NCBI GenBank assembly: GCA_021372695.1
Contig: JAJFTY010000114.1
Span: 1 to 42,827 of the forward strand
Reading direction: 5' to 3'
DNA length: 42,827 nt
Origin: Deltaproteobacteria bacterium
GTDB taxonomy: Bacteria > Desulfobacterota > Syntrophia > Syntrophales > UBA5619
The notes beneath the pieces were generated by a model, which searched no databases, was not told where the DNA came from, and was given only the letters and a program-made list of their open reading frames with translations. This document shows positions 22,543 through 42,123 of the stretch, piece after piece. Each line of letters opens with the position of its first letter. Positions within the stretch are counted from its first letter, which is position 1. A program made the position numbers and the translations under genes.

Positions 22543-24521
22543 TGCACTTCAGGAGGGGTATGTCGTCGAAGCCAAGCGCCTTCTTTCCGCCGCACCTCGG
22601 CTGCTTTCTTCTCTGCCTGATGGTGAGCTCGCTCCTGCCGATCAAGGGCATCGAGACCTTATGCCCGGCGCAGGGAGAAGCGCCGGAGCCATCGGCCGTC
22701 GAGGCCGGTTTCGAACCGGCGCCGCCCCAACCCCCTCCCGCACCCGCGTTGTCCAGAGGGGGTACGGCGTCACCTGTCGTATCACACCGAGGCCAGTTCG
22801 CCCTCAATTTTGACGACGCCGACGTCTATTCGATCATCCAAACCGTCTTCGGCGAAATCCTGAAAGTCAACTATGTTATCGATCCCCGCGTCAAGGGAAG
22901 GGTGACTTTCCGGGCTGTCGCCCCGGTGCCTGCCGAGCAGGTTCTGCCCCTGATGGAGGTCATTCTCCGATTGAACGGAATCGGGATTGTCGAGGAGAAT
23001 CACCTCTACAGAATCGTCCCTATCAGCGACATCGCCAAGGAGCCGTCGCCTGTCAGCTTCGGCCGCGATCCGGCAAAGATCGAGGCGAAGGGCAAAGCGC
23101 TGCTCCAGGTGGTGCCGATCATCGACGTCCAATCCTCCGACGTCCTGAAACTGATCACCCCCTTTGCTTCGAGCAACGCCGTTCTCATCGACGTGCCCAA
23201 GAGCAACCAGATCATCATCGTTGATACCGATGCCAGCGTAAAGCGGCTGCTCAAGCTGATCGAGGTGTTCGACAACGAGAAGCTGAAGAAACGGAAACCG
23301 CAAGTAAATGTCTATCAGGTTCAGAACAGCAAGGCCAAGGATATCGCCGTTTTGTTGCAGCAGATCTTTACGGGGGGCAAGGGGGTGACCCTGGAGCGCT
23401 CAACCGGATCCGCTCCCGCCAAGACAGGCATGGAGGGCTCTTCTGCAGCGCTCCCGACAGGACCCGGGTCGGGCGGTCCATCCCTGCAACAGGCTTCGAC
23501 GCAGCCGGTCGGCACGGAAGCGCTCCTTTCCGACATCACGAAGATAATTTCAGACGAGATCACCAACACCGTCATCGTTCTCTCCACTCCGGAGGACTAT
23601 GAGATCATTGTGAAAACCATCGAGCAGATCGACATCGTCCCCCGGCAGGTCGTCATTGAGGGGATGATTGCCTCGGTATCGCTGACGGACAATCTCAGTT
23701 TGGGCCTGGGCGCCCTTTTCAAGGGAAGCGTTTCGGGCTACGACACCAGCATCGGTGTGAATCCCGGCTCGTTGAACGTCAATCCGCTGGCCCTGACCCA
23801 GGCCGGATTCACCTTTCTGGTCACCGACGCCGCAGGAATCGTCAGAGGGCTGCTCACGGCACTGGCATCGGAGTCGAAGGCAAAGGTGCTTGCAGCGCCG
23901 CATATCCTGGTTTCCGACAACCGGGACGCGAAGATCCAGGTTGGGCAGCAGGTTCCCCTTCTCACCTCGGAAACCTACGGTGCCGTCGGCGTTACGCCCC
24001 AGCGGAATTATCAGTACAAGGACATCGGCATCATCCTGAAGGTCAAGCCGCGGATCAACGAGGGCGGCCTGGTTTCGCTGGAAATCTCTCAGGAAATATC
24101 CACTTCCGAAAAAATCACGCTGGGTGGCACCGAACAGCTGCTCCTCAACAAGACCGAGGCGACAACGAACCTCGTGGTGCAGGACGGCCAGACCATCGTG
24201 ATTGGCGGCCTCATCCGGGAGGATACCAACAAAGGGAGCTCCGGCGTGCCGTTCCTCTCCCGGATACCCATCATCGGCTGGCTTTTCGGAGGATCGACGG
24301 ACGACGTCAAGAGGCAGGAACTCATCATCCTGCTGACCCCACGCGTGATCAAGAACCAGAAAGAGGCGAAGGAACTCTCCCAGGAGTTGATCGACAACAT
24401 GTCTGAGGCCAGCAAAGACCGGATCAAAAAGGAAGAGCTGCTCCGAGGAAAAGCCCCGCAAAAGCAGGAAGGGGCCCAACCGCCGGATGCATCCGGAAAC
24501 TCATCTCAGCCAAACCCGTAG
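22539..24521 (+). CDS. gspD: type II secretion outer-membrane secretin GspD
   Basis: A 660-residue secretin with a signal peptide and a Pro/Ala-rich linker to about residue 85. Next come an N0 domain ('LNFDDADVYSIIQTVFGEIL'), N1-N3 ring domains interrupted by a Ser/Gly-rich insert, and a C-terminal secretin domain with 'VVQDGQTIVIGGLIREDTNK' and 'IPIIGWLFGG'. It forms the outer-membrane exit channel of the T2SS. I use the ATG overlapping the gspG stop; ATG 22560 with AGGAGG directly upstream is an alternative. The C-terminal tail is charged and may bind a pilotin. The gene ends 17 bp before cusB. Confidence 0.95.
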   Translation: MMHFRRGMSSKPSAFFPPHLGCFLLCLMVSSLLPIKGIETLCPAQGEAPEPSAVEAGFEPAPPQPPPAPALSRGGTASPVVSHRGQFALNFDDADVYSIIQTVFGEILKVNYVIDPRVKGRVTFRAVAPVPAEQVLPLMEVILRLNGIGIVEENHLYRIVPISDIAKEPSPVSFGRDPAKIEAKGKALLQVVPIIDVQSSDVLKLITPFASSNAVLIDVPKSNQIIIVDTDASVKRLLKLIEVFDNEKLKKRKPQVNVYQVQNSKAKDIAVLLQQIFTGGKGVTLERSTGSAPAKTGMEGSSAALPTGPGSGGPSLQQASTQPVGTEALLSDITKIISDEITNTVIVLSTPEDYEIIVKTIEQIDIVPRQVVIEGMIASVSLTDNLSLGLGALFKGSVSGYDTSIGVNPGSLNVNPLALTQAGFTFLVTDAAGIVRGLLTALASESKAKVLAAPHILVSDNRDAKIQVGQQVPLLTSETYGAVGVTPQRNYQYKDIGIILKVKPRINEGGLVSLEISQEISTSEKITLGGTEQLLLNKTEATTNLVVQDGQTIVIGGLIREDTNKGSSGVPFLSRIPIIGWLFGGSTDDVKRQELIILLTPRVIKNQKEAKELSQELIDNMSEASKDRIKKEELLRGKAPQKQEGAQPPDASGNSSQPNP

Positions 24522-24538: not shown

Positions 24539-26569
24539 ATGAAAAAAATACATCTCCGGGTGCTCGTTCTATTGCTGATTGCCGCTGGCTCCTTTCTTGC
24601 CGGATCCTGGGTCACCCACCAAGGTAGCAGGGGAACGGTGGCGGAACGCAAGATCCTCCACTACGTGGACCCGATGAATCCGGCCCTCAAGTTCGACAAG
24701 CCGGGCATCGCCCCGTGCGGCATGCCCCTCGAACCGGTCTATGCCGATCAGGAGGGTGCTGGCGCAACCGCTCTCCGGGCATCCCTCCCGCCGGGGACGA
24801 TCCGGATCGCTCCGGAGAAGCAGCAGCTGACCGGCGTCAAAACGGCTGCGGTCGAGAAAATCCCGTGGAGTCACACCCTGCGGGTGTTGGGGCGGGTGGC
24901 TCCGGACGAGACGCTCGTCTACCGAGTGAATGCCGCAGTCAACGGCTGGATCGAGGAGGTCCTCCCCGTCACCACCGGCAGTCTGGTCAAGGAAGACGAG
25001 CTCCTGGCCACATTCTATTCCCTGGAATACCGTAATCTGGTCCAGAACTATTTCAACCTGATCACCATCAGCAAGGAGGGCTCCCCGGGTGCGAAGGCGG
25101 TGGCTCAGGGGTCCAAGTACAGCGTGGGCCAGCTCCGGCAGCTCAGGGAAGCGGCCAGTTCCATCGGTCAGGCCGGTGAGGGATCGCAAATCGACTATTA
25201 CCGGAAGAACCTTCTCAACTATGGGATGAGCGCCCACCAGATTGAAGAAATGGAACGGACCAAGAAAGTCCCGGAAACAGTCGAAATCCGGGCGCCGAGC
25301 GCGGGCTTCGTCCTCTATCGGAATGTCTCTCCAGGCTTGCGCTTTGACCGGGGGGCCGAATTCTTCCGGATTGCCGATCTCTCCCGGGTCTGGATCCTGG
25401 CCGATCTCTTTGAAACCGAGGCGTCCCATTTCAGACCGGGGTTGCGGGTGAAGATGGAACTTCCCTACCAGAAGAGGACCCTTCACGGAGTGATCAGTAC
25501 CGTGTTGCCCCAATTCGACCCTGCCACGCGCACCCTCAAGGTCCGGATCGTGGCGGACAACCCCGGCTATGCGATGCGTCCCGATATGTTCGTGAACGTG
25601 GAGCTTCCTGCCAGCGGTCCACCAGCCATCCTCGTCCCGGTCGATGCGGTCCTCGATTCGGGTTTGAAAAAGACGGTCTTCGTCGACCGGGGGAACGGCT
25701 ATTTCGAGCCGAGACTTGTCGAGACGGGACAATTGCTGGGGGAACAGGTCGAAATCGTCCGTGGGCTCATGGCAGGCGAAAAGATCGTCGTGTCCGGGAA
25801 TTTCCTGATCGATTCGGAAGCGCGAATGCAACAGGCTGCCAGCGGGATCGCCGGCCGAATTGGCCGCGACCCGGTTTGCGGGATGAACATCGACGAAGAC
25901 CTCGCCAAAACGGCAGGAAACATGCGGACACACAAGGATAAGGGTTATTTCTTCTGCTCGCCCGAGTGCAGGGATGAATTCGGCAAGGATCCGGAGCGGT
26001 ACCTGAAATCGGCCAAAGGGCCGGGGACCACGGGGATGACCGGTTCGGGGGATGCTGCGGCGAAGCATGACCACCCGCTGCCGGAAGCGGCTCCCCCATC
26101 GCGGGGAACGAAGGCCACGCGCGGGGGACATGAGGGGATGGCCATGCCGATGCCGGGTGCAGAACCCCCGCGTGCGATGCCCGGGAAGCCCCCCACTGCC
26201 GGAACCATGCCAGGGCGGATGTCCATGCCGAAAGACGCTGCACCCCTGCCCGAGATGAAAGACGACATGATGGCCCCCTCACCAGGCAGTACTCCAGAGG
26301 TGGATATGGACTCGCCAGCGCTTCCCGGTCCGGAGGAGATGACCATGACCGGACCTCAGGAGGCGGCGCCGATGTTGGGCGCCCAACCGGGCGCACCGGC
26401 GCCCAGGGCACCGATGACCCGTACTCCCAGGATAAATCCAAGGTTGCAGCGATATCTCCCCCCGGGAGCCATGCCAAAGGCTGCTCCGCAGGGAGAAGTG
26501 CTCATGCCCGGAGAGAAGACCGGGACCGAGCCTGCGCCCGCAATCGATAGTTCGGGATCACGGCCGTGA
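24539..26569 (+). CDS. cusB: CusB-like RND periplasmic adaptor with added metal-binding domains
   Basis: A 676-residue membrane-fusion protein for a heavy-metal RND pump. An N-terminal anchor is followed by a heavy-metal-binding domain ('HYVDPMNPALKFDKPGIAPC', then GMPLEPVY). The core has lipoyl-type, hairpin and beta-barrel domains ('VNAAVNGWIEEVLPVTTGSL', 'LADLFETEASHFRPGLRVKM'). A YHS-like domain follows near residues 445-485 ('DPVCGMNIDEDL', 'YFFCSPECRDEFGKDPERYL'), then a 180-residue Pro/Met/His-rich tail ('MAMPMPGAEPPRAMPG'). It links the pump to the outer membrane and may hand Cu(I)/Ag(I) to it. TTG 24533 is an alternative start. No CusC gene is nearby. Confidence 0.88.
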   Translation: MKKIHLRVLVLLLIAAGSFLAGSWVTHQGSRGTVAERKILHYVDPMNPALKFDKPGIAPCGMPLEPVYADQEGAGATALRASLPPGTIRIAPEKQQLTGVKTAAVEKIPWSHTLRVLGRVAPDETLVYRVNAAVNGWIEEVLPVTTGSLVKEDELLATFYSLEYRNLVQNYFNLITISKEGSPGAKAVAQGSKYSVGQLRQLREAASSIGQAGEGSQIDYYRKNLLNYGMSAHQIEEMERTKKVPETVEIRAPSAGFVLYRNVSPGLRFDRGAEFFRIADLSRVWILADLFETEASHFRPGLRVKMELPYQKRTLHGVISTVLPQFDPATRTLKVRIVADNPGYAMRPDMFVNVELPASGPPAILVPVDAVLDSGLKKTVFVDRGNGYFEPRLVETGQLLGEQVEIVRGLMAGEKIVVSGNFLIDSEARMQQAASGIAGRIGRDPVCGMNIDEDLAKTAGNMRTHKDKGYFFCSPECRDEFGKDPERYLKSAKGPGTTGMTGSGDAAAKHDHPLPEAAPPSRGTKATRGGHEGMAMPMPGAEPPRAMPGKPPTAGTMPGRMSMPKDAAPLPEMKDDMMAPSPGSTPEVDMDSPALPGPEEMTMTGPQEAAPMLGAQPGAPAPRAPMTRTPRINPRLQRYLPPGAMPKAAPQGEVLMPGEKTGTEPAPAIDSSGSRP

Positions 26570-26597
26570 ATGCACACCTCCGACAGCGGGCAAGCGC

Positions 26598-29500
26598 ATG
26601 ATCAACAGAATCATTGATTTTTCCGCCAAAAACAGGCTGATCATTTTCCTGCTCGTGACGGCAGCTGCCGTCACGGGGTGGTGGTCCCTGAAGCATCTTC
26701 AACTGGACGCCATCCCGGATCTCTCCGAGACCCAGGTGATCATCTACTCCCGCTGGGACCGCAGTCCGGATATTCTCGAGGATCAGGTCACCTACCCGAT
26801 CGTATCGGCCATGCTCGGCGCTCCGGGGGTCCGGACCGTTCGCGGCTTCTCCGATTTCGGCTATTCCTTTGTCTATGTCATCTTCAACGAGGGAACCGAC
26901 ATCTACTGGGCCCGTTCCCGGACCCAGGAGTATCTCTCGGCGGTTCTGCCGCGTCTTCCCCAGGGGGTCCAGACGGAGCTGGGACCCGACGCAACGGGGC
27001 TGGGCTGGGTATTTCAGTACGCGCTCGTCGATACGACCGGGCAGCAGAGTCTGGCCGAGCTCCGCTCCTACCAGGACTGGTACCTGCGCTATCACCTCAA
27101 GTCGGTGCCCGGCGTGGCCGAGGTGGCGCCCGTGGGCGGTTTCCGTCGGCAGTATCAGGTGAATCTCGACCCCAACCGGCTGCAGTTCTACAACATACCC
27201 GCCAGCCGCGTGGTGGAGAAAGTCCGTGAGAACAATAACGATACCGGTGGGCGTCTCATCGAGTTCGGCGGAACGGAGTACATGGTCCGCGGCCGTGGAT
27301 ATGCGCGATCCATCCAGGATTTCGGGAATATCGCCATAGCGGTGAGCGAAAACGGCTCGCCCATACGCATCCGGGACGTAGGAGAGGTGACCCTCGGACC
27401 CGACTACCGGCGTGGGGTGGCGGACCTGAACGGCACCGGCGATACGGTATCGGGCATCATCGTCATGCGCCAGGGACAAAACGCCCTGGAAGTGATCGAG
27501 CGGGTCAAGAAGAAAATCCGCGAGATCGAACCGGGACTCCCTTCCGGCGTGAAAATCGTCCCCGTTTACGACCGTTCGGACTTGATCCACCGCGCGATCG
27601 ACAATCTGAAGGGGACGCTTGTCGAGGTGATGATCACAGTATCGCTGGTGGTGCTCCTGTTTCTCTGGCATTTCCCAAGCGCCATCATCCCCATCATCAC
27701 CATTCCTCTGGCGGTCCTGATCTCGTTCATCCCCTTTCGGCTGATGGGGGTCACGGCAAACATCATGTCCCTCGCGGGGATCGCGATCGCCATCGGCGCC
27801 CTGGTCGATTCGGCCATCGTGGTCGTGGAGCAGACGCACAAGAAGCTTGAACTTTGGGAGCGGGAGGGCCGGCGAGGCGATTACCGGGACGTGATCATCC
27901 AGGCCGTCAAGGAGGTTGGTGGGGCCAGTTTCTTCGCGCTTCTGGTCATTGCCGTATCATTCCTCCCCGTTCTGACACTGGAAGCCCAGGAGGGGCGCCT
28001 GTTCAAGCCGCTCGCGTACACCAAGACCCTCTCCATGATCGTCGCCGCCTTCCTGGCCATCACCCTGGACCCGGCACTGAGGCTACTCTTCACCCACATT
28101 CGCAACTTCCATTTCCGGCCGCTCTGGCTCTGCCGGACGGCAAACGCCGTCCTGGTCGGGACCATACGCTCCGAGCAGCGTCATCCCATCAGCCGTTTCC
28201 TGATCCGCATCTACGAACCGGCTGTGGCATGGTCGCTTCGTCGTAAGTGGTGGGTGATCGGCGCTGCCGCCGTCCTTGTCCTGGCAACGGCGCCGGTGTT
28301 CCAGAAGCTGGGCTCCGAGTTCATGCCGCCGCTGGATGAGGGATCGCTCTTCTTCATGCCGACCACCATGCCGGGAATCTCTGTCACCGAGGCGCAGAAG
28401 CTTCTCCAGGTCACCGACCGGATAATCAAGGGGTTCCCGGAGGTCGATCAGGTGCTCGGCAAAGCAGGGCGCGCGGAGACGTCGACAGACCCGGCGCCCC
28501 TTTCGATGCTCGAAACCCTGGTCATCCTCAAACCGAAGAGCCAGTGGCGCAGGGTGGATACCTGGTACTCCTCCTGGGCGCCGGAGTGGCTCAAGCCCCT
28601 CCTTCGCCCGATTTCGCCCGACACCCTCACGTCGGAGGAGCTGGTCAGCCAGCTGAACAATGCGCTCAGGCTCCCCGGCCTCTCGAACGCCTGGACCATG
28701 CCGATCAAGGGCAGAATAGACATGCTGACGACGGGCATCCGCACACCGGTTGGGCTCAAGATCTCCGGTGCGAACCTGGTCCAGATCGAACAGATCGGGG
28801 GACAGGTGGAGTCGGCCCTGCGCCAGATGAAGGGGACCCGGAGCATCTTTGCCGAGCGGACCGGTGGCGGCTATTTCCTCGACATCGACTGGAATCGCGA
28901 TGAACTGGCCCGTTACGGCCTTTCCATCGACGACGCGCAGGGGGCCGTCCAGAATGCCATCGGCGGTGAAAATGTCGCCGTCACCATCCAGGGGCGTGAA
29001 CGGTATTCGGTGAACGTGCGCTACCAGCGAGACTTCCGCAGCAATATGGAAGCCATCGGCCGAGTCCTGGTACCCATCGACGAAGGCCGGAAACAGCTCT
29101 CCCTCGCCCAACTGGCGGATGTGAGCGTCGCGAGCGGGCCGGCCATGATCCGGGATGAAGACGGCCTGCTGACCGGGTACGTCTATGTGGATATCGCCGG
29201 GCAGGATCCGGGCGGGTACATCGAAGAGGCGGATCGGCTGCTTCGCACGAAGCTGGAACTTCCCCCCGGTTACGCGGTTGCCTGGAGCGGTCAATACGAA
29301 GCGATGCAGCGGGTCCGGGAGCGCTTGGCGATCGTGGTGCCCGTGACCCTCATGCTGATCGTCCTGCTGCTCTATCTCAACACCGGTTCGCTCGTGAAGA
29401 CGGCAATCGTGCTTTTAGCCGTCCCGTTCTCGGCGGTGGGTGCCGTCTGGTTCCTCTACTGGCTCGGCTACAACATGAGCATCGGCGTCTGGGTGGGGCT

Positions 29501-29894
29501 GATCGCCCTGCTCGGCGTCGATGCCGAAACCGGCGTCTTCATGCTCCTCTATCTCGACCTGGCCTATGAAAAGGCACGGAAGGAAGGGCGCCTGAAGACC
29601 CTGAACGACCTGCGGGAAGCCATCCGGGAGGGTGCCGCCAAACGCATCCGGCCGAAGTTCATGACGGTGGCGACCACGCTCCTCGGCCTCATTCCCATCA
29701 TGTGGTCCACTGGCACGGGCGGGGATGTGATGAAACACATCGCAGCGCCAATGGTAGGGGGAATCCTGACCTCCTTTCTCATGGAACTGATGGTCTACCC
29801 GGCGATCTACGAGATCTGGAAATGGAATTTTGTCATGAAAAAGGGGCTCATCCCGGCAGGCGGACAGCACCGTGCTGATGGGCGGGAGAGGTGA
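26598..29894 (+). CDS. cusA: CusA-like heavy-metal RND efflux pump
   Basis: A 1098-residue HME-RND transporter with the usual 12 membrane segments and two periplasmic loops. Family motifs include 'LDAIPDLSETQVIIYSRWD', 'AIAIGALVDSAIVVVEQTHK' and 'VDAETGVFMLLYLDLAYE', which hold proton-relay Asp/Glu. Three methionines that match the Cu(I)/Ag(I) site of E. coli CusA are present: Met587 (FFMPTTMPG), Met637 (LSMLETL) and Met709 (RIDMLTTG). The substrate is therefore probably Cu(I)/Ag(I) (inferred by alignment from memory). It drives export from the periplasm with CusB. The gene is followed 1 bp later by a TlpA-like gene. Confidence 0.93.
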   Translation: MINRIIDFSAKNRLIIFLLVTAAAVTGWWSLKHLQLDAIPDLSETQVIIYSRWDRSPDILEDQVTYPIVSAMLGAPGVRTVRGFSDFGYSFVYVIFNEGTDIYWARSRTQEYLSAVLPRLPQGVQTELGPDATGLGWVFQYALVDTTGQQSLAELRSYQDWYLRYHLKSVPGVAEVAPVGGFRRQYQVNLDPNRLQFYNIPASRVVEKVRENNNDTGGRLIEFGGTEYMVRGRGYARSIQDFGNIAIAVSENGSPIRIRDVGEVTLGPDYRRGVADLNGTGDTVSGIIVMRQGQNALEVIERVKKKIREIEPGLPSGVKIVPVYDRSDLIHRAIDNLKGTLVEVMITVSLVVLLFLWHFPSAIIPIITIPLAVLISFIPFRLMGVTANIMSLAGIAIAIGALVDSAIVVVEQTHKKLELWEREGRRGDYRDVIIQAVKEVGGASFFALLVIAVSFLPVLTLEAQEGRLFKPLAYTKTLSMIVAAFLAITLDPALRLLFTHIRNFHFRPLWLCRTANAVLVGTIRSEQRHPISRFLIRIYEPAVAWSLRRKWWVIGAAAVLVLATAPVFQKLGSEFMPPLDEGSLFFMPTTMPGISVTEAQKLLQVTDRIIKGFPEVDQVLGKAGRAETSTDPAPLSMLETLVILKPKSQWRRVDTWYSSWAPEWLKPLLRPISPDTLTSEELVSQLNNALRLPGLSNAWTMPIKGRIDMLTTGIRTPVGLKISGANLVQIEQIGGQVESALRQMKGTRSIFAERTGGGYFLDIDWNRDELARYGLSIDDAQGAVQNAIGGENVAVTIQGRERYSVNVRYQRDFRSNMEAIGRVLVPIDEGRKQLSLAQLADVSVASGPAMIRDEDGLLTGYVYVDIAGQDPGGYIEEADRLLRTKLELPPGYAVAWSGQYEAMQRVRERLAIVVPVTLMLIVLLLYLNTGSLVKTAIVLLAVPFSAVGAVWFLYWLGYNMSIGVWVGLIALLGVDAETGVFMLLYLDLAYEKARKEGRLKTLNDLREAIREGAAKRIRPKFMTVATTLLGLIPIMWSTGTGGDVMKHIAAPMVGGILTSFLMELMVYPAIYEIWKWNFVMKKGLIPAGGQHRADGRER

Positions 29895-29895
29895 C

Positions 29896-30444
29896 ATGAA
29901 GCAGAATTGCGAACCAATGGCAGGCATGGAGCGAGGCCAGGGCCGCCCCAGACAACCACTGTGGTATTCCATCCTTCTCCTTGTCCTTGTCCTGCTGGTC
30001 GCATCATCTCCCGCGGAGGCTGACCTGCGCATCGGATCCGCGGTGCCGCAGGCCACGATTCCGGATGTCAACGGGGGTTCCGTCAGGATTCGCGAACGCC
30101 TCATGGGCAAGGTGGCCCTTCTCCACTTCTGGCAAATCGGCTGTTCATCGTGCAAGTTGGAGATGCCTGCCATGGATACCCTGTACACGCAATACCGGAA
30201 GAAGGGGCTGGAGATCCTGGCCGTCAACGTCGGTCAGAAAAAAGAGAGCGTACAGGCCTTTGCGGCTGAGTTGGCGGTCTCCTACCCGCTCCTGATCGAT
30301 CCGGAACAGAAGAACGCCCGTCTGCTCGGCGTGACAGATGTGCCCAGGACCTACGTGATCGACCGCAACGGGATCGTCCGATACAGGATTCTGGGCGGCG
30401 CGACAACGGAGACATTGAAGAAGCTGATCCTGAGTCTTCTCTGA
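29896..30444 (+). CDS. TlpA-like membrane-anchored thioredoxin (CSSC)
   Basis: A 182-residue protein with an uncleaved or signal helix at about residues 23-42 and a thioredoxin-fold domain with redox motif Cys83-Ser-Ser-Cys86 in 'LLHFWQIGCSSCKLEMPAMD'. The cis-Pro loop is 'GVTDVPRTYVIDRNG'. TlpA/ResA-type proteins reduce periplasmic disulfides for cytochrome c or copper-site assembly. I take ATG 29896, just after the cusA stop, with GGGAGAGGTG upstream. The context suggests reduction of cysteines in the copper proteins encoded next. Confidence 0.9.
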   Translation: MKQNCEPMAGMERGQGRPRQPLWYSILLLVLVLLVASSPAEADLRIGSAVPQATIPDVNGGSVRIRERLMGKVALLHFWQIGCSSCKLEMPAMDTLYTQYRKKGLEILAVNVGQKKESVQAFAAELAVSYPLLIDPEQKNARLLGVTDVPRTYVIDRNGIVRYRILGGATTETLKKLILSLL

Positions 30445-30495
30445 TGTACCCGAAATTGACCGTAACGAGGTTATGTTGACGACCTCTTAAGAAGG

Positions 30496-30558
30496 CGTCA
30501 CCCCGGTGACAGCCGGGGTCCAGGGTATAACTGGTTCCCGGCTGTCGCCGGTATGACG
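30496..30558. repeat. dispersed REP/MITE-like palindrome
   Basis: Arms CGTCACCCCGGTGACAGCC... (30496-30523) and CTGGTTCCCGGCTGTCGCC... (30531-30558) pair in 23 of 28 positions around GGTATAA. The form matches the common 'GTCATTCC.GCG.AAGCGGGAA' class of interspersed repeat, and the following 'GGCTTTTACGGGTTCGTC' resembles the tail often seen with it in Desulfobacterota (recalled, not searched). It sits between the TlpA-like and cytochrome genes. Confidence 0.6.
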
Positions 30559-30632
30559 TTCTGGTGGATTTTGGGCTTTTACGGGTTCGTCCATTTTGTC
30601 TCGTTGATAAACCGAACGGAGGGAGAAAGATC

Positions 30633-30947
30633 ATGAAGAAGTTGTGGGTTTTTCTGGTTGTCGCCGTAATGGCTGCCCCGGCCGCCGCCTGGGCGAATCC
30701 GAGAATCGACTTCAACGCCCATTGTGCGAAATGCCACAGGGCGAACAAGTCTCTCCCGAAAACGGCCAAAGCGCTGGGAGTGGCTCCCGCCAAACTTGCC
30801 CTCAGAACAAGCACCATGAACCGGGAGGAGATGATCGCTGTCGTCGAAAAGGGCCGGGAGAAGATGCCGGGATTCGAGAAGGAGCTGACCAAAGAGCAGG
30901 TTACCGAAATCGTTGACTATATCATCCAACTGAAGAACAGGAAGTGA
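30633..30947 (+). CDS. small periplasmic c-type cytochrome
   Basis: A 104-residue class I cytochrome c with a signal peptide (about residues 1-21, ending AWA), haem motif Cys31-Ala-Lys-Cys34-His35 and probable distal ligand Met78 in 'REKMPGFEKEL'. It carries one electron in the periplasm. A strong GGAGGGAGAAAGATC ribosome site decides the ATG at 30633; an upstream in-frame ATG at 30564 lies in the REP-like region. It lies between two TlpA-type thioredoxins, so its haem or copper partner may be handled by them. Confidence 0.9.
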   Translation: MKKLWVFLVVAVMAAPAAAWANPRIDFNAHCAKCHRANKSLPKTAKALGVAPAKLALRTSTMNREEMIAVVEKGREKMPGFEKELTKEQVTEIVDYIIQLKNRK

Positions 30948-31068
30948 GCGGCCGGCCGGGGACATCTCCCTATTCGCGCTGCTCAAAATGGCGTCAGCCC
31001 CGTTCCTTGCTGGCCGGTTCCATGCGGCCGTCGGAGAGTGTTCTCGTTGATGAGAAGGGGTAGGTTCG

Positions 31069-31590
31069 ATGTCACCCGAAATATCCCGAAGACTATTCTT
31101 GAGGATGACCGCACTCCTGGTCCCCGGCCTGATCTGGTGCGGAAGGATGCCGAGTCTCGCCGGAGCGGCTTTCAGGATGGGCGACGCGCCGCCCGATGTT
31201 GCCCTCAGCAATCTCCGCGGCGAGAGCTTCCGCATCCCATCCGGGTTCGCGGGAAAAGTGGTCGTGATCCACTTCTGGGCAAGCTGGTGTCCCACCTGCC
31301 TCGGGGAGATGATGAGCCTCGAGTCCGTATACCGCGAGTACCCGCGGAAAGAGGTCATTCCCTGTTCAATCGGCCTCGGTGAGAAAAAGGAAACGGCCCT
31401 GAGGTACCTGAAAAACGTTGAAATCTCGTACCCAGTTCTTCTCGATCCGGTCTCGTCCACGAGAAAACTGTACGGCGTCGCCGGCATCCCGACCTACTTC
31501 ATTATCGATCGCGGAGGCTTGATTCGACAGAAGATTCTCGGCAAGGCTGACCCGGCAGGACTGAACAGGATGATCCGGTCACTCCTGTAA
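31069..31590 (+). CDS. TlpA-like thioredoxin with Tat-type signal (CPTC)
   Basis: A 173-residue protein. 'SRRLFLRMTALLVPGLIWC' at the N terminus fits a twin-arginine signal. The thioredoxin domain has Cys74-Pro-Thr-Cys77 in 'VIHFWASWCPTCLGEMMSLE' and the cis-Pro loop 'GVAGIPTYFIIDRGG'. It is a periplasmic or membrane-linked thiol-disulfide protein related to the CSSC gene 1.2 kb upstream but different in sequence and active site, so the pair are likely distinct steps of one redox path. Confidence 0.88.
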   Translation: MSPEISRRLFLRMTALLVPGLIWCGRMPSLAGAAFRMGDAPPDVALSNLRGESFRIPSGFAGKVVVIHFWASWCPTCLGEMMSLESVYREYPRKEVIPCSIGLGEKKETALRYLKNVEISYPVLLDPVSSTRKLYGVAGIPTYFIIDRGGLIRQKILGKADPAGLNRMIRSLL

Positions 31591-31781
31591 GGCGACCGGG
31601 TTGGAAATCAACCCACGGAGCGAGGATTACAGAATGCGCAACCGTCGACAGATTCATCAGGATCTACCTACCATTCTACTACCATAATGCCCTTCTTTAC
31701 TGCAGGCCTGGGAACAGCCAAGATGAGGCCAGATTGCAGAGTCGAATCGTTTAATTTCTGACCAGTTGCCCGAATGACGCC

Positions 31782-32117
31782 ATGAAAAAGATTCGAACAT
31801 GGATTCCGGTAATCCTGGCCCTGGCCATCCTGGTGGGCGGCCCCTTCGGTTTCGGACGGATGGACGATTCCGACCCGCGCGGGGGACTCATCTGCTACTG
31901 CTGCTCCGCAACGGGAGAGACGTGCGCCATGATCTCCTGTTCGGGTTGCTGCGGCGCCCACACGAGCGCGACCGCCGACCGCTGGTCGCCTGAAATGACC
32001 CTGGAATCGTCTCCCGCCTTCATCCCGGCGACGGTCGTTTACGGCGATTTGGAAACCGCACAACCACCGGAAACCGTTTACCTCGACGTTCCGGATGAGC
32101 CCCCCGAGCGAGCCTGA
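31782..32117 (+). CDS. Cys-rich secreted protein, 111 aa, unknown family
   Basis: Signal-like N terminus ('WIPVILALAILVGGPFGFG') followed by a short Cys-rich stretch with seven Cys in 20 residues (Cys38, 40, 41, 48, 53, 56, 57; for example 'ICYCCSATGETC'), then an acidic, Pro-rich tail. I do not recognise the family. The composition fits a periplasmic metal-binding peptide, and it stands just before the NosL genes. The ribosome site is weak, which lowers confidence. Confidence 0.6.
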   Translation: MKKIRTWIPVILALAILVGGPFGFGRMDDSDPRGGLICYCCSATGETCAMISCSGCCGAHTSATADRWSPEMTLESSPAFIPATVVYGDLETAQPPETVYLDVPDEPPERA

Positions 32118-32223
32118 ATCCTTCACGCGCCAATGGGTGGATCGCCCCGCGCAGACGCCATCGTCCGAGGGTGCCGTCCACCCCGCGAAAAGAACACCCA
32201 AAGACAATGTGAAAGGAGATGCC

Positions 32224-32745
32224 ATGAAGAAGATGGCTTTATGTTCCATAGTTGCGGTTTTCTGTCTCTGCTGGGGGAGCGCGGTCTGGGCGCTCGACAA
32301 CGATGTGAAGGAGATCCCGGCCTGCAAGTATTGCGGAATGAACCGGGAGATGTTTGCCCACAGCCGGATGCTGCTCGAATACAGCGACGGCACGAAGGAG
32401 GGGGTCTGCTCCCTGCACTGCGCCTCCGTCGATCTGGCCCTGAACCTCGACAAGGCGCCCAAGGCGATCCAGGTGGGCGATTACGGTCAAAAGACGCTGA
32501 TCGATGCGGAAACGGCGACCTGGATCATCGGTGGGAGCAAACCCGGGGTGATGACCAAAAACGCCAAATGGGCTTTTGCGAACAAAGCCGATGCCGAGAA
32601 GTTCAGGCTGGAAAACGGGGGCCGGCTGGCCACATTCGATGAAGCCCTCGAGGCGGCTTACAAGGATCTCGCCGATGATACCAAGATGATCCGGGAGCGG
32701 CGAAAAATGCGAAACATGAAGATGATGCATGAGCACAAGCCATGA
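32224..32745 (+). CDS. nosL: NosL-like copper-binding protein 1
   Basis: A 173-residue exported protein. After a signal peptide (ending near VWA) it has 'IPACKYCGMNREMF' (Cys34, Cys37, Met39), the metal-binding core of the NosL family, then 'CSLHCAS' and 'TWIIGGSKPGVMTKNAKWAF', typical of NosL. NosL proteins bind Cu(I) and supply it to periplasmic enzymes. No lipobox is seen. The tail is Met/His/Lys-rich. The ATG at 32224 has GGAGATGCC upstream; its stop overlaps the next NosL gene. Confidence 0.88.
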   Translation: MKKMALCSIVAVFCLCWGSAVWALDNDVKEIPACKYCGMNREMFAHSRMLLEYSDGTKEGVCSLHCASVDLALNLDKAPKAIQVGDYGQKTLIDAETATWIIGGSKPGVMTKNAKWAFANKADAEKFRLENGGRLATFDEALEAAYKDLADDTKMIRERRKMRNMKMMHEHKP

Positions 32746-33365
32746 TCCGGAGCATCGCACAAAAAACTTGGGAAGCCTTCTGTAGGGACAGGGCTGCGGA
32801 GGGCAACGCCCGGCAGAGGCATTCTCCGCCGGGAAATCCGGTCCAGCAGGCGGGGAGATCCGCCCTGCCTGCCGCACCGGGTTCGTGGGATATTCTCCTG
32901 GTCATGGTGCTCTGCGGGATTTGGGTCCTGCTCTCATCTTCCCCGGGAGCGGCCGAGCCGGGGGTGCCGAAGCCGGGGCTCCGGGACAAGTGCCCGGTGT
33001 GCGGCATGTTCGTGGCGAAGTATCCCGACTGGATGGCTGCGATTCACTTCAGGGACGGCTCTCACGTCTACGCCGACGGCGCAAAGGATATGTTCAAGTA
33101 CCTCCATGATCTCAAAAAGTATGATCACGTGAGGAAGCCGGAGGAGATCCAGACCGTCCTGGTCATGGACTATTACCGGCTCTCGTGGATCGATGCGCGG
33201 AGCGCCTGGTATGTCCTGGGCAGCGACGTGTTCGGCCCCATGGGCCGGGAACTCATCCCGCTGGAGCACAAGACCGATGCGGAGGAGTTCATGAAGGACC
33301 ACCGGGGGACCCGGATCGTCCGGTTTGCCGACATCACCAGAGAGGTCATCAAAACCCTTGATTGA
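32742..33365 (+). CDS. nosL: NosL-like copper-binding protein 2
   Basis: A 207-residue second NosL relative with 'DKCPVCGMFVAKYPDWMAAI' (Cys84, Cys87, Met89), 'YVLGSDVFGPMGRELIP' and 'AEEFMKDHRGTRIVRF'. The signal-like helix lies far in, at about residues 50-71, after a hydrophilic stretch, so a start near ATG 32904 is possible. The ATG at 32742 overlaps the stop of the first NosL gene. It may pass Cu(I) from or to the first copy. Confidence 0.85.
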   Translation: MIRSIAQKTWEAFCRDRAAEGNARQRHSPPGNPVQQAGRSALPAAPGSWDILLVMVLCGIWVLLSSSPGAAEPGVPKPGLRDKCPVCGMFVAKYPDWMAAIHFRDGSHVYADGAKDMFKYLHDLKKYDHVRKPEEIQTVLVMDYYRLSWIDARSAWYVLGSDVFGPMGRELIPLEHKTDAEEFMKDHRGTRIVRFADITREVIKTLD

Positions 33366-33714
33366 AGCACTCTCCCGGAAGGCACAGGCAAAGCCTAGGC
33401 TTCCCATCCGGAAGTCCGGGCTCTGCCTGTGCCTGCTGTGTGTCGGCTTGCTGCTGATGGGCCTGATGTTTACCCATGCCCACATTCAGGGGCGTGCAGA
33501 CGGCCCGTCCCTCGGCCGGATGGCCGGAGTCGTTCGGGACCTGGAGCTCACCGACCTTGCCCTCTTCACGGAGGCCCGTTATACGCGACACCTCTCCCAG
33601 ACCGATCTCCATTCGGCCTTCCAGGACCATCCGCTCTCCCTGGAGCATTTTCCGGCGGGATCCATGGCGGCTCCCCCGGCCCGCTTGCGGAGGCCCCATG
33701 ACAAGCCGGATTGA
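33358..33714 (+). CDS. small single-pass membrane protein before the ABC permease
   Basis: About 118 residues with one hydrophobic helix ('SGLCLCLLCVGLLLMGLMFT') and a soluble part containing 'AHIQGRADGPSLGRMAG' and 'FQDHPLSLEHFPAGS'. I place a TTG start at 33358, overlapping the NosL stop; ATG 33325 is possible but lies in NosL. The end overlaps the permease start at 33698. I do not recognise the family. It is probably an accessory subunit of the ABC system (inference). Confidence 0.6.
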   Translation: MIEALSRKAQAKPRLPIRKSGLCLCLLCVGLLLMGLMFTHAHIQGRADGPSLGRMAGVVRDLELTDLALFTEARYTRHLSQTDLHSAFQDHPLSLEHFPAGSMAAPPARLRRPHDKPD

Positions 33715-34834
33715 AAAACAGCGCAGCATTCTGGATTTCACGCTCTCCTCGGTGCTGCGGAGGAAGGGCAAGAACGTCAGTCTCGTCTGCGTCTACACGC
33801 TGGTGGTGTTCCTCCTGGGGTCCGCCCTTTTTCTGACGCAGGCCATGAAGCGAGAGGCCGCGCTCATCCTGAAGGGCTCTCCGGAAATGGTCGTCCAGCG
33901 GCTGCTCGGCGGCCGATACGATCCGATCCCCGTCGAGTACACCGAAAAAATCCAGAAGATCCGGGGCGTCGTCTCCGCGGCTCCCCGATTGTGGGGATAC
34001 CACTACGACCCCGCCGCGGGCGCCAACTACACGCTCATGGTTCCACAGAACGATCCTCCCGGCCGGGGGAAGATCGTCATCGGAAAAGGCATCTCGCGGG
34101 CCAGGAGCGTCTATCCGGGCGACATCCTCTCGTTCCGGGGATATGACGGCCTTGTCCTGAACGGTGAGGTGGAGCGGGAGTTCCCCTCCGAATCGGAGCT
34201 GGTCTCGGCCGACCTGATCCTCATGGCCGAGGATGATTTCCGGAGTCTTTTCGGGCTGGATGTCGCGCGGGCAACGGACATCACTGTCACGGTCCGGAAC
34301 CTGAAAGAGCTGCCGACCATCGCGGAGAAGATCGCGACGCTGCTGCCCGATACGCGGCCCATCCTCCGGGACGAGATGGTGCGGACCTACGATTCGGTCT
34401 TCGACTGGCGGGGCGGAATGGTGATCGTCCTGATCATGATGGCCCTTCTCGCCTTTGTCATTTTCGCCTGGGAAAAGGCCTCGGGCCTGAGCGCGGACGA
34501 AAAGCGGGAAATCGGCATCTTGAAGGCCGTCGGCTGGGAAACATCCGACGTGATCGCGGTCAAGGCATACGAAGGGCTTCTGGTCTCCTTCTTCTCATTC
34601 TGCGCCGGAATCCTGCTGGCCTACGCGCACGTGTTCTTTACCTCGGCCGCTCTTTTCGCACCGGCCTTGAAGGGCTGGTCCGTGCTCTATCCCGACTTCC
34701 GGATCTCGCCCCTGATCGATCCCTATCAGGTGGCGATCCTCTTCTTCCTGACCGTGGTGCCCTATACGGTCGCAACCATCGTCCCCTCGTGGCATGCCGC
34801 CATTGTCGATCCCGATTCGGTGATGAGGTCCTAG
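33698..34834 (+). CDS. FtsX-like ABC transporter permease
   Basis: A 378-residue permease of the MacB/FtsX type: helix 1 near residues 28-47, a large periplasmic domain, then three helices with 'GGMVIVLIMMALLAFVIFAW' and the 'DEKREIGILKAVGWETSDVI' cytoplasmic coupling segment. With the ATPase downstream it would form a transporter or mechanotransmission complex for envelope proteins or metal-loaded carriers. The ATG follows GGAGG. The gene follows NosL, unlike classic nosDFY, where NosY has a different fold. Confidence 0.88.
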   Translation: MTSRIEKQRSILDFTLSSVLRRKGKNVSLVCVYTLVVFLLGSALFLTQAMKREAALILKGSPEMVVQRLLGGRYDPIPVEYTEKIQKIRGVVSAAPRLWGYHYDPAAGANYTLMVPQNDPPGRGKIVIGKGISRARSVYPGDILSFRGYDGLVLNGEVEREFPSESELVSADLILMAEDDFRSLFGLDVARATDITVTVRNLKELPTIAEKIATLLPDTRPILRDEMVRTYDSVFDWRGGMVIVLIMMALLAFVIFAWEKASGLSADEKREIGILKAVGWETSDVIAVKAYEGLLVSFFSFCAGILLAYAHVFFTSAALFAPALKGWSVLYPDFRISPLIDPYQVAILFFLTVVPYTVATIVPSWHAAIVDPDSVMRS

Positions 34835-34836
34835 AG

Positions 34837-35565
34837 ATGATAAGATTGCTGAACGTCCGCAAGGGATTCAACCTGGGCAAGCCGAGCGAATTCATCGCGG
34901 TGGGCGGGGTCACGCTTTCGATCGAGGCGCACCGGATCACGGTCCTGAAGGGGCCGAGCGGTTCGGGGAAGACGACGCTCCTGAGCCTCATCGGCTGCAT
35001 GGCCAGGCCCACCTCGGGCCGCATCACCGTGATGGGTAAGCTCCTGGGCAGCAACGGATTTCTGAAGAACGAAGCGGCAGGAGAGATGGAGGTGACGAGC
35101 CTCCCGGAGCGGTTTCTGACGGAGATCCGACGAAAGACGTTCGGTTTCATCTTCCAGCAGTTCAACCTCGTGAAGGGGATCTCGGTGATCGAAAACATCA
35201 TGCTGCCCGCCTATCCGCTCGGGGAAAAGCACGAGGTCGTCAAGGCGCGGGCACTCTCCCTGCTCGAGGCTTTCGGCCTCCGGGAGCGCGCCACGGCACG
35301 GGTGGAATGGCTGTCGGGCGGCGAGGCGCAGCGGGTAGCCATTGCCCGGGCGCTCATGAACGATCCCCCGGTCATCATCGCTGACGAGCCGACGGCCCAC
35401 TTGGACAGCAAGCTCTCCCTGGAGTTCATGGAGACCATCTGCCGCCTGAAGGACGAAGGGAGGACCGCTATCATCGCGAGCCACGATCCTCTCGTTTACG
35501 GCGCACCGATGGTCGACCGGGTGGTTGCAGTCCGGGATGGCCTGATCGAGGGTAGCGGAACATGA
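34837..35565 (+). CDS. ABC transporter ATP-binding protein (MacB/LolD type)
   Basis: A 242-residue ATPase: Walker A 'GPSGSGKTT' (residues 39-47), Q-loop 'FIFQQFNLVKG', signature 'LSGGEAQRVAIARAL', Walker B 'VIIADEPTAHLDSK' and H-loop 'ASHD'. It powers the FtsX-like permease that ends 2 bp upstream. The start at 34837 is preceded by GAG; the longer frame starting at 34789 lies in the permease. The stop overlaps the next gene's ATG (35562). Confidence 0.92.
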   Translation: MIRLLNVRKGFNLGKPSEFIAVGGVTLSIEAHRITVLKGPSGSGKTTLLSLIGCMARPTSGRITVMGKLLGSNGFLKNEAAGEMEVTSLPERFLTEIRRKTFGFIFQQFNLVKGISVIENIMLPAYPLGEKHEVVKARALSLLEAFGLRERATARVEWLSGGEAQRVAIARALMNDPPVIIADEPTAHLDSKLSLEFMETICRLKDEGRTAIIASHDPLVYGAPMVDRVVAVRDGLIEGSGT

Positions 35566-36566
35566 TTCTCCATCCCGGCATCGTCGCCCTCGTTCTGGTC
35601 TCGCTTCTCACCTCCGGGATGATCCTCTACAGCGCCTTTTTCGGGGTCCGGATCATCCGGCGATGGGATATCCGGAGCGGCAGCGAGGAGCAGTTGGCCC
35701 TGGAGAGGCGAACCTACCTCATCTCGACGATCCTTTCCTACGTGTTCGTGTTTCAGATCGGCTCGCTCTTTCTCTACATCTACACGGCCGACAGCCTCCA
35801 CAATCTCTTCGTCGGGGCGATGTGCGCCGCCGGAAGCCTGAACGTCGATCCTTACGGCTATCCGGCATTCCTGCTGAAAATACTCAATTGCATCCTGGCG
35901 GGCCTCTGGTTGATCATCAATTACACGGACAACCGGGCCCATGACTATCCCCTGATCCGCAAAAAGTACGGCCTGCTGCTCGTCCTGGCGCCCCTGATCG
36001 TGACGGAGGCGGTGGTTCAGTGGCTCTATTTCGCGCAGATGAGGGCGGATGTGATCACCTCCTGCTGCGGGAGCCTGTTCAGTTCGGACAAGGGAAGTGT
36101 GGGTTCGGACATCGCGGCCGTGCCGGTGAAAGCCGCGATGGCGGCCTTCTATCTGAGCCTCGCGCTGCTCCTTTTTTCGGGGATCGTCTATTACGTCAGG
36201 GGGAAACTGGGGTGGCTTTTATCCGTTGCGAGCGGGCTTTTCTTCCTGATCTCCTGCATATCGTTCATCTCGTTCATCTCGCTCTATTTCTACGAGCTTC
36301 CGACCCACCACTGCCCTTTCTGCGTCCTGCAGCGCGAGTACGGCTACATCGGATATCTGCTGTACGCTGCCCTGCTGACGGGGGCTGTTTCGGGCCTCGG
36401 CGTCGGCGCCTTGATGCCTTTCAGGTCGATCGGCAGCCTTTCGGAAAGTCTGCCACTGATACAGAAGAGGCTGGCGCTGCTGTGCCTCGTCTCCTACCTT
36501 GTTTTCGCCGGCATATCGATCTGGCGCATGACCGGCACGGATTTCACCCTGGGGCTGATGCGCTGA
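35562..36566 (+). CDS. polytopic membrane protein with Cys pairs, unknown family
   Basis: A 334-residue protein with about eight membrane segments. It has a 'VITSCCGSLF' motif (Cys168, Cys169) and 'ELPTHHCPFCVLQREYGYIG' (Cys251, Cys254), the latter resembling the CxxC of DsbB/VKOR-type quinone-linked thiol oxidoreductases, though the rest does not clearly match. It may exchange electrons between membrane quinones and periplasmic cysteines or bind copper in the membrane; both are inference. It is the last gene of the metal cluster and is coupled to the ATPase (ATGA). Confidence 0.7.
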   Translation: MILHPGIVALVLVSLLTSGMILYSAFFGVRIIRRWDIRSGSEEQLALERRTYLISTILSYVFVFQIGSLFLYIYTADSLHNLFVGAMCAAGSLNVDPYGYPAFLLKILNCILAGLWLIINYTDNRAHDYPLIRKKYGLLLVLAPLIVTEAVVQWLYFAQMRADVITSCCGSLFSSDKGSVGSDIAAVPVKAAMAAFYLSLALLLFSGIVYYVRGKLGWLLSVASGLFFLISCISFISFISLYFYELPTHHCPFCVLQREYGYIGYLLYAALLTGAVSGLGVGALMPFRSIGSLSESLPLIQKRLALLCLVSYLVFAGISIWRMTGTDFTLGLMR

Positions 36567-36644: not shown

Positions 36645-37469
36645 TCACTGCTGCTTTTGCAGCTGCTCCATCCGCAGGAGCCGTCCCTCTCTCAGCCGCT
36701 GCTGTGTCTGCTCCACGCTGCTTTGGGTAGGCGGCCATGTCCCGGAGCCCCCGATTCCCGGTGCGGGCGCCGATGGTTGTCCGGTCTGTGCGGACGGCGC
36801 AATCTTGGGGGGTTGCTGCTGGCTGGGAGCGGGCAGAGTTACCGCGCGTGCCGAAGGGGGGGCAGCACGAGGAGGGGAAGGCAGAGCCTGTGGAGGGGGG
36901 GGCGTGCCGCCGGTCGCCAATCCTGCAACAGCGGGCGCTGCGGGACCTTCGACCCGTCTCTTTTCCTTGTCGTCCAGGCTGACCACGAGCCTCTCGTCTC
37001 CCTTGATCAGGACAATCCGGCTCGCCTCGATCTCGCGCAGGACATACCCGCCCAGGCTCTCCCCTTTCTTAAGCGTGACCTGCCGCTTGCCTCTCCCTGC
37101 CGTCGAATAGGGCGCCTTCCTGTCTTCGACAAAGGCATAACTCGCATTGTCCGTAATCAGGGTGCCGTAAAGGACAAGGTCCGGCTTTGGCAGGACCTTG
37201 TCCTGCGGCTTCTCCGGCGGGACCTTCCGTTCCGGGTGAAAAAGGTTCTGCTCGATGATCACGGCATAATCAGCCGGAGCCGGTCTCAGACTCTGAATCG
37301 CCACCGCCTTTTCCACGGATCCCGCAGCCGTCCCCTTCGCCGCGGGAAGGGGGACCGCAGCCGGGTTCAGAAAGGGAATCACGGCAAAAAACACGATCGC
37401 CGCGACGGCTGCCGCGAGCAGGCCGTTCAAAAAATTCAGGCTGAGGAAAAAGTATCTCATTTTGGACAT
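36645..37469 (-). CDS. gspC: GspC-like type II secretion inner-membrane protein
   Basis: A 274-residue protein with an N-terminal membrane helix ('LNGLLAAAVAAIVFFAVIPF') and a homology-region domain: 'LFHPERKVPPEKPQDKVL', 'LVLYGTLITDNASYAFVEDR', 'LGGYVLREIEASRIVLIKGD'. The C terminus is a Pro/Ala/Gln-rich tail with no PDZ domain, unlike many GspC proteins, so it may not recruit substrates in the same way. It links the secretin to the inner-membrane platform. It is the last gene of the minus-strand gsp operon, 1 bp from gspM, and converges on the metal cluster. Confidence 0.82.
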   Translation of the reverse strand: MSKMRYFFLSLNFLNGLLAAAVAAIVFFAVIPFLNPAAVPLPAAKGTAAGSVEKAVAIQSLRPAPADYAVIIEQNLFHPERKVPPEKPQDKVLPKPDLVLYGTLITDNASYAFVEDRKAPYSTAGRGKRQVTLKKGESLGGYVLREIEASRIVLIKGDERLVVSLDDKEKRRVEGPAAPAVAGLATGGTPPPPQALPSPPRAAPPSARAVTLPAPSQQQPPKIAPSAQTGQPSAPAPGIGGSGTWPPTQSSVEQTQQRLREGRLLRMEQLQKQQ

Positions 37470-37470
37470 C

Positions 37471-38025
37471 TCAAATTCCCCCGGTCAGGCCCGACACCTT
37501 CAGTTTGACCGTCAGGTCTCGCGGCTCCCGGAAATTCCGGATGCGCGTATCGAGCTCCCGGACGACGAGGGAAGGGGTCTGCGTCTCGATGGCGTAGAGC
37601 GTGTCGGCGAGTGCCTTCGTGTCGGGCAGGACCGCATCGACCGTGACCGTGATGACCTTGAATTTTCCCGCCTCTTCCAGCTTTTCAACCCTTTCGCTGG
37701 CGATGGTCCCGCCCCTGGATGTGATCATGATGCCGATCGTGTTCTGCAGCGCTGCGGCGGCGACGGGAGGGGTCTGCCCCTCGATGATCTTCGCGTTTTC
37801 CGCCCTTCTGGCCTCCCTGGCCGCGGTCAGTTTCGCCTCGAGGCGGGGCTTGTCGGCGATCAGGGTCACGTATTTCTGGAGGGTTCCCGCCTTGACGGCC
37901 GCCGCATCCTCCAATTCGACCAGCTCCGACCGGACCCTCAGGTAGCCGTACTCGTAAACGACCAGGCCCAGGAGGACGATCAAAAGAGGGATGGCGATCA
38001 GGAGAATATTGCTTTTTCCTTTCAT
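37471..38025 (-). CDS. gspM: GspM-like inner-membrane assembly protein
   Basis: A 184-residue protein with one N-terminal membrane helix ('NILLIAIPLLIVLLGLVVYE'), a coiled-coil stretch and a small PilO/GspM-type ferredoxin-like domain ('KVITVTVDAVLPDTKALADT', 'SLVVRELDTRIR'). It works with GspL and GspE in the T2SS inner-membrane platform. The start overlaps the gspL stop by 4 bp. The sequence is poorly conserved, so the name rests on order and topology. Confidence 0.75.
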   Translation of the reverse strand: MKGKSNILLIAIPLLIVLLGLVVYEYGYLRVRSELVELEDAAAVKAGTLQKYVTLIADKPRLEAKLTAAREARRAENAKIIEGQTPPVAAAALQNTIGIMITSRGGTIASERVEKLEEAGKFKVITVTVDAVLPDTKALADTLYAIETQTPSLVVRELDTRIRNFREPRDLTVKLKVSGLTGGI

Positions 38026-41189: not shown

Positions 41190-41303
41190 GGAATGCCCCT
41201 CCTCCCCATGTCTCCTCACATCATCCCTCCCCAACCCAGGAGGGGAAATTTCTCGCCGCAGTTAAGACATTATTGGAGAGAAAAAAGTGGGTGATGTCAA
41301 GGG

Positions 41304-42017: not shown

Positions 42018-42123
42018 GGTCCCTCCTATCCCCACTGATTCATACAGCAAGAAAGAAATTCGGGGAGGGATTTCTCCCTCCCCGGTCAAAGTGGTTTTAC
42101 GAATCTTCGCGATCAACTTCTTC

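Follow-up and report, generated by a model that had tools for sequence, protein, structure and literature searches.

Closest described systems

Among described systems, NosDFYL comes closest to the genes considered here: in the text available from PMC6530538 and PMC7558416, NosL Cu(I) chaperones stand beside an ATP-binding cassette (ABC) permease and its ATPase. The available text of PMC13068155 adds the nosDFYL genes of Parageobacillus, in which NosL and the ABC system occur without NosZ and other recipients are suggested. Our locus lies in a contig of 42,827 nucleotides from a Deltaproteobacteria bacterium (JAJFTY010000114.1), referred to below as the window, and consists of twelve tightly packed genes, all on the + strand, at 24539..36566. 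The last six encode two NosL proteins, a small membrane-anchored protein, an FtsX-type permease, an ABC ATPase and a 334-residue membrane protein that we call M334. We favour, with slightly better than even confidence, the view that these six genes (the core, or cassette) specify a periplasmic copper-loading machine for exported copper enzymes.

The cassette shares with NosDFYL its NosL chaperones and ABC pair, and in two genomes (G050 and G203) it adjoins NosDFY itself. It differs in its FtsX-type permease, where NosDFYL has the ABC2-type NosY, in the additional M334 and small protein, and in that no NosD match was found among the twelve genes of the run; moreover, the cassette usually occurs without NosZ, which exceeds its cut-off in 2 of the 32 M334-bearing genomes of the first phylum sampled below. 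The cassette works like a NosL-ABC relay but is not NosDFY. An original prediction, made from the sequence of the window, had paired the two NosL genes with ABC components unlike NosFY. This is borne out, in that both NosL proteins exceed the PF05573 cut-off of 24 bits (52.9 for NosL1 and 107.8 for NosL2) and the permease matches only FtsX (PF02687).

Other systems share parts of the run. The copper/silver efflux system CusCBA has counterparts in the CusB and CusA genes, but these are optional to the core, no CusC was found among the genes scanned, and the CusB of the window reaches only 158 where the model of the CusB subfamily requires 390. The Campylobacter P19/Ftr iron system also gathers FtsX permeases, an ATPase and TlpA-like proteins in one cluster, but with P19 and an Ftr1 permease and without NosL. 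Finally, the mofABC/ompB clusters (PMC5566968) combine a multicopper oxidase, a peptidyl-prolyl isomerase, a cytochrome c with a periplasmic-binding domain and SCO1, and genes of these kinds neighbour the cassette in several loci; in the available text of that paper, however, the copper chaperone is SCO1/SenC, and NosL, the ABC pair and M334 are not mentioned.

The core genes are as follows.

32224..32745, + strand: NosL1, with CxxCGM, a second cysteine pair and a Met/His-containing tail (PF05573, E = 6.2e-14)
32742..33365, + strand: NosL2, with CPVCGM (PF05573, E = 6.7e-31)
33325..33714 (start uncertain), + strand: small membrane-anchored protein of 129 amino acids with TEARYTRH and EHFPxG motifs (no Pfam match at E<=0.1)
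33698..34834, + strand: FtsX-type permease of 378 amino acids (PF02687, E = 3.1e-8)
34837..35565, + strand: ABC ATPase of 242 amino acids (ABC_tran, E = 1.8e-27)
35562..36566, + strand: M334, an eight-helix membrane protein of 334 amino acids with C88, C168-C169 and C251/C254 (no Pfam match at E<=1, no NCBIfam match at E<=0.1)

The spacing between successive core genes, which depends on the gene starts chosen, is -4 bases for NosL1/NosL2, -41 for NosL2/small protein, -17 for small protein/FtsX, +2 for FtsX/ATPase and -4 for ATPase/M334.

Six genes form the conserved unit

M334 has at least 4861 relatives at E<=0.001. Gene order was compared in the best 80 of at least 582 confirmed places in species genomes, a sample that leans toward close relatives because the best were retained; the loci were fetched with two peptide patterns containing M334 cysteines. 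Sixty-six of the 80, in which the M334 frame does not begin before base 3800, could be scored for order. The small protein, FtsX, ATPase and M334 genes lie on one strand in 65 of these, the exception (L019) having the small protein, FtsX and NosL2 just past M334 on the opposite strand, and a NosL gene is found within 5.5 kb of M334 on the same strand in 58. Neighbouring genes were counted in the 42 loci with at least 7.5 kb of sequence on each side: CusA is near the cassette in 14, a MofA/OmpB-like multicopper oxidase in 11, TlpA in 9, DsbD in 6, CopA in 4 and SCO1 in 3. The conserved unit is NosL1-NosL2-small-FtsX-ATPase-M334, and CusBA, TlpA and cytochrome c are add-ons to it, as the low counts for CusA and TlpA indicate.

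The original prediction had described the run as a single module of eleven genes and proposed a search of the neighbourhood in relatives. Its gene content, order, strand and overlaps agree with what we find, although the genes number twelve. The single module does not survive the counts just given: the six core genes stay together, while CusBA and TlpA are often apart from them.

Groups named in the titles of cassette-bearing records include Nitrospirae, Candidatus Methylomirabilis, Lentisphaerae, Methylococcales and several Deltaproteobacteria families. The Methylococcales loci have their NosL and TlpA genes after M334. One genome, G257, has on contig C143 (L129, L136) a partial copy, TlpA-NosL2-small-FtsX, adjoined on the other strand by CusA, CusB and a multicopper oxidase; the ATPase and M334 were not found in the last 2.3 kb of this contig, and we do not regard the copy as a complete second cassette. 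Locus L090 (G236) has several clustered M334 matches with multicopper oxidases between them.

The cassette is real and conserved, and a search of the open-licence PMC literature did not find a description of it. In the available text of PMC2680965, GSU1330 and the ABC permease GSU1340 share one table, and Geobacter sulfurreducens GSU1330-1340 is only a tentative candidate for the same locus.

Properties of the core proteins

In NosL1, residues C34, C37, M39, C62, C66 and M110 are kept in all 62 aligned sequences, and in NosL2 residues C84, C87 and M89 in all 84. The CxxCGM of both families fits the CXXCXM motif that Bennett et al. (PMC6530538, available text) give for Cu(I) in clade II NosL. 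No lipobox was seen by eye in the leaders of the two NosL proteins of the window. Six Methylococcales loci (L030, L045, L055, L059, L076 and L080) encode a NosL-type protein of about 470 amino acids whose C-terminal part is long, and most of these loci also have a DsbD or CopA gene nearby.

M334 and the small protein are two families without a Pfam domain name. The small-protein motifs TEARYTRH and EHFPxG are kept in most of 85 aligned sequences. Among 102 aligned M334 sequences, C88, C168 and C169 are present in 102, C251 in 101 and C254 in 98, numbers that are partly built in for the 80 loci because the fetch patterns contained those cysteines. A recount on 19 M334 sequences from profile searches of genomes found the five cysteines in 19 and H249 in 17. 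The second predicted model of M334 has eight long helices with a predicted local distance difference test (pLDDT) score of 88. The loops without cysteine are richer in lysine plus arginine per residue, and the side bearing the five conserved cysteines, including CPFC, is therefore most likely periplasmic, as judged from this distribution of charge. The M334 profiles found no PDB sequence at E<=10. An internal duplication was suggested by a shallow alignment (P = 0.0056; reversed control, 0.19), but the signal vanished with 101 sequences, where the score was 15.3, against 15.4 for the reversed control and a mean of 15.1 (best 20.2) for 30 block-shuffled ones, and we reject the duplication. Some M334 relatives of about 381 amino acids (P0004, P0030, P0058 and others) have an insert repeating the SCC motif.

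Copper enzymes that accompany the cassette

Two phyla were sampled for the genes that occur with M334. The first sample comprises 247 genomes of the phylum that includes Pelotalea chapellei, of which 32 match M334; the second, drawn from the phylum of locus L046, comprises 168 Nitrospirota genomes, 27 with M334 and 141 without. In the first, NosL is present in 31 of the 32 genomes with M334 and in 12 of the 215 without it (P = 2e-28), and in the second in 24 of 27 and 17 of 141 (P = 4e-15). Copper enzymes show a similar bias in the first phylum. Multicopper oxidase (PF07731) occurs in 22 of 32 M334-bearing genomes compared with 50 of 215 lacking M334, COX1 in 22 compared with 68, and at least one of multicopper oxidase, COX1 and NosZ in 31 compared with 90.

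Proximity separates these enzymes. Of the 22 genomes with both M334 and a multicopper oxidase, 12 have the two no more than 20 kb apart on one contig, compared with 0.68 expected by random placement. The control, COX1, lies within this distance in none of the 22 genomes that have it together with M334, with 0.45 expected, and we reject cytochrome oxidase as the main client, for although it co-occurs with M334 it is never this close. The P values overstate the association because the sampled genomes are related; proximity is less affected by this relatedness than co-occurrence. Many of the neighbouring oxidases are MofA/OmpB-like, of about 1200-1600 amino acids (frames of 999-1563), and we take them not to be of the CueO kind.

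The probable role of the core is to supply copper to enzymes located beyond the inner membrane, chiefly to multicopper enzymes that are secreted. The delivery of copper through NosL and the ABC pair, which the original prediction had proposed, is supported by the association of NosL with M334 in two phyla and by the multicopper oxidase or NosZ near the cassette in many first-phylum loci. That prediction had combined delivery with detoxification in one pathway; the delivery part is supported and the joint module is not.

Several observations weigh against this reading. In 8 of the 66 scorable loci no NosL was found within 5.5 kb on the same strand, and NosL occurs without M334 in 12 genomes of the first phylum and 17 of the second. 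Multicopper oxidase is not enriched in Nitrospirota (12 of 27 M334-bearing genomes and 79 of 141 others, P = 0.30), where, among the matches listed, it is close to M334 (within 5 kb) in 2 of 12 genomes (G306 and G342). Of the 12 genomes with a proximal multicopper oxidase, 7 also have a CusA gene within the stretch fetched, an arrangement like that of a resistance island. No multicopper oxidase domain was found among the open reading frames (ORFs) scanned in the window. Lastly, of 151 genomes from the Methylobacter order only 17 match M334, one of them weakly, and M334 is therefore not generally needed for the copper monooxygenase of that order; the methanotroph monooxygenase, which was not itself searched, was dropped as a general client.

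The cassette within nos clusters

NosZ exceeds its cut-off in three genomes of the first phylum. Two of these, G050 and G203, carry M334, and the third, G235, has no M334 match. In G050 the genes run cytochrome b, cytochrome c, NosZ, NosD, NosF, NosY, TlpA and the core, with four NosL genes, one ahead of NosY and three ahead of the small protein. In G203 the order is NosZ, NosD, NosF, NosL, NosY, TlpA, NosL, NosL, small protein, FtsX, ATPase and M334. No CusA was found in the 20 kb read in either case. In two loci with the cassette inside a nos cluster (L085 and L086), the permeases in the NosY position match PF12679. Because G050 and G203 each have NosDFY as well, the cassette is an addition to it and not a replacement. 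Its position there suggests that some bacteria use a second ABC pair, one of the FtsX type, to assemble N2O reductase. Of the NosL frames in L085, one has an additional match to cytochrome c and another to a Pfam family of the outer-membrane type.

A model for copper loading and the alternatives to it

From gene content, the conservation and order of the core, motifs, topology judged by charge, and gene proximity, we infer Cu(I) as the metal, the direction of its transfer, the client and the following mechanism. The two NosL proteins would hold Cu(I) at their CxxCGM sites. M334, with five cysteines facing the periplasm, would take copper from NosL, pass it to NosL or keep thiols reduced. Transporters with the FtsX fold, MacB and LolCDE among them, act mechanically in the periplasm, and the FtsX-ATPase pair of the core would similarly couple ATP hydrolysis in the cytoplasm to movement of a periplasmic part, and so to the hand-over or release of copper; it would not move copper through the membrane. 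The apo-enzyme would then take up copper and be retained or exported. The clients would be exported cuproenzymes, most often MofA/OmpB-like multicopper oxidases, with NosZ in two genomes. Where present, CusBA, TlpA and cytochrome c would remove excess copper and set the redox state of thiols. By analogy, it is plausible that TlpA keeps cysteines reduced; the available text of PMC7558416 describes TlpA work on oxidase subunit II.

As the main alternative, much of the same gene content could be read as a copper-resistance island, in which the cassette works with CusBA and a multicopper oxidase against toxic copper in the periplasm, and NosL, together with FtsX and M334, scavenges excess Cu(I) for the pump or the oxidase. 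CusA near a third of the 42 loci and in 7 of the 12 genomes with a proximal multicopper oxidase, CopA ATPase near 4 of the 42, and the YHS domain and long Met/Pro-rich tail of the window CusB are what this explanation would lead one to expect. It does less well with the remaining 28 of the 42 loci, which have no CusA in the DNA fetched, with the MofA/OmpB-like character of many neighbouring oxidases, or with the two nos clusters, in which the cassette is found without CusA in the 20 kb read. The nos clusters and the 28 loci speak against resistance as the whole story, which we regard as rather unlikely.

If M334 instead moved electrons across the membrane for TlpA and client cysteines, in the manner of DsbD or CcdA, copper would be secondary. 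Its five conserved cysteines, with CPFC on the likely periplasmic side, and the TlpA or DsbD genes near some loci fit such a thiol relay, but these genes accompany only 9 and 6 of the 42 loci, respectively, whereas NosL is the steady partner. Nor is M334 recognizable as a relative of DsbB, VKOR or CcdA: none is among the 15 Pfam families listed at E<=1 for 51 M334 members, each family in at most 5 members, in a scan whose filters drop most matches above 0.1. We consider the relay improbable. Less probable still is an exporter of proteins or lipoproteins like LolCDE or MacB, with NosL nearby for some other reason. Although the best curated models for the permease are LolCE and ADOP, it scores 39.4 bits against a cut-off of 362 for the LolCE equivalog, no MacB_PCD (PF12704) match was found in it, the ATPase is a separate gene and not fused to it, and the linkage to NosL extends over two phyla.

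Copper loading by the core, as outlined above, can be given a fuller statement, which we offer tentatively and hold a little short of even. M334 and the small protein would be new families, and the cassette a copper-insertion machine not described before, driven by mechanical work of the FtsX type. It would supply Cu(I) to secreted multicopper oxidases serving extracellular metal redox chemistry and, in some bacteria, also to NosZ, and in the lineage of the window it would pass the loaded enzyme directly to a linked type II secretion system. Judging from the parts of the literature available, the copper source of the extracellular multicopper oxidases of metal-respiring and manganese-oxidising bacteria is not settled. 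The cassette, with its two unnamed protein families, occurs in named isolates, for example Pelotalea chapellei, Oryzomonas japonica and Methylobacter tundripaludum, which provides specific genes for testing.

Linkage to type II secretion

In the window the run is flanked by gspG-gspD on the + strand before it and by gspC-M-L-K-J-I-FKBP on the - strand after it, flanks that the original prediction had left unmentioned. The remaining features are as follows.

22066..22542, + strand: gspG, type II secretion pseudopilin (T2SSG, E = 1.4e-40)
22419..24521, + strand: gspD, type II secretin (Secretin, E = 8.2e-50); the coordinates give the first listed start, the true start being probably further in
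24539..26569, + strand: CusB-like adaptor with a YHS domain and a Met/His-containing tail (HlyD_D23, E = 8.7e-53; YHS, 2.6e-7; HMBD, 1.7e-4, below cut-off)
26598..29894, + strand: CusA/CzcA pump of the resistance-nodulation-division family (TIGR00914, 1043.6 bits; cut-off 701)
29872..30444, + strand: TlpA-like thioredoxin-fold protein with CSSC (AhpC-TSA, E = 1.2e-24)
30633..30947, + strand: small cytochrome c with one CxxCH (Cytochrome_CBB3, E = 6.6e-12); a purine-rich stretch lies ahead of the ATG at 30633
31069..31590, + strand: TlpA-like thioredoxin-fold protein with CPTC (Redoxin, E = 4e-18)
31782..32117, + strand: Cys-rich secreted protein of 111 amino acids (no Pfam match at E<=0.1)
36645..41234, - strand: gspC-M-L-K-J-I block (PilN/GspL, T2SSK, T2SSM_b, weak T2SSJ, N_methyl); gspC has no Pfam match and is named from position and relatives, and gspI from N_methyl and position
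41304..42116, - strand: FKBP-type peptidyl-prolyl isomerase (FKBP_N, E = 2.9e-29; FKBP_C, 9.6e-27)
42139..42825, - strand: C-terminal repeat domain, possibly a multicopper oxidase tail, in an ORF cut by the window end

The CusB gene starts 17 bases after the gspD stop. Comparable arrangements occur elsewhere. In L005, gspG-gspD is followed by the Cys-rich gene, NosL1 to M334, CusB, CusA and two TlpA genes, gspD and the Cys-rich gene being separated by at most 35 bases or overlapping by 4, according to the start chosen. The Nitrospirae locus L046 has an arrangement close to that of the window, with gspD upstream of the cassette and the genes gspC-M-L-K-J-I, read from the opposite strand, downstream of it. 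The genome of L002 (G252) has FKBP-gspI-J-K-L-M-C-gspG-gspD on the same strand, 2.7 kb ahead of CusB-CusA, and in L061 gspC lies directly past M334. Among the loci, gsp matches were found only in L005, L006, L037, L046, L061 and L088, and the link to type II secretion is therefore lineage-bound. In the lineage of the window, the machine would be wired to the type II secretion system and to the FKBP isomerase, which would fold and export the client.

According to the available text of PMC5566968, mofABC encodes a multicopper oxidase, a peptidyl-prolyl isomerase and a cytochrome c; MofC-like proteins carry a periplasmic-binding domain, and SCO1 adjoins a Geobacter mofC homologue. Several of our loci have one or another of such genes close to the cassette, whether for a multicopper oxidase, an FKBP, SCO1 or a cytochrome c with Peripla_BP. 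The genome of L005 (G255) encodes a 1334-residue multicopper oxidase whose C-terminus is 55% identical over 226 amino acids (E = 5e-83) to the window ORF at 42139-42825, which on this similarity may possibly be an oxidase tail. It is not a proven oxidase: the Kelch ORF at 19636-21252 on the - strand has the same repeats, of the LYGTFTGKGLYKWDG type, and they were not found near FKBP in L128 and L131-L134. Similar repeats directly follow a multicopper-oxidase-like stretch in L125 and L126.

The Cys-rich protein of 111 amino acids has tblastn relatives in 3 of the 80 loci (L004, L005 and L074). A separate Cys-rich family (family 31) lies close to the cassette in four others, L008, L011, L053 and L056.

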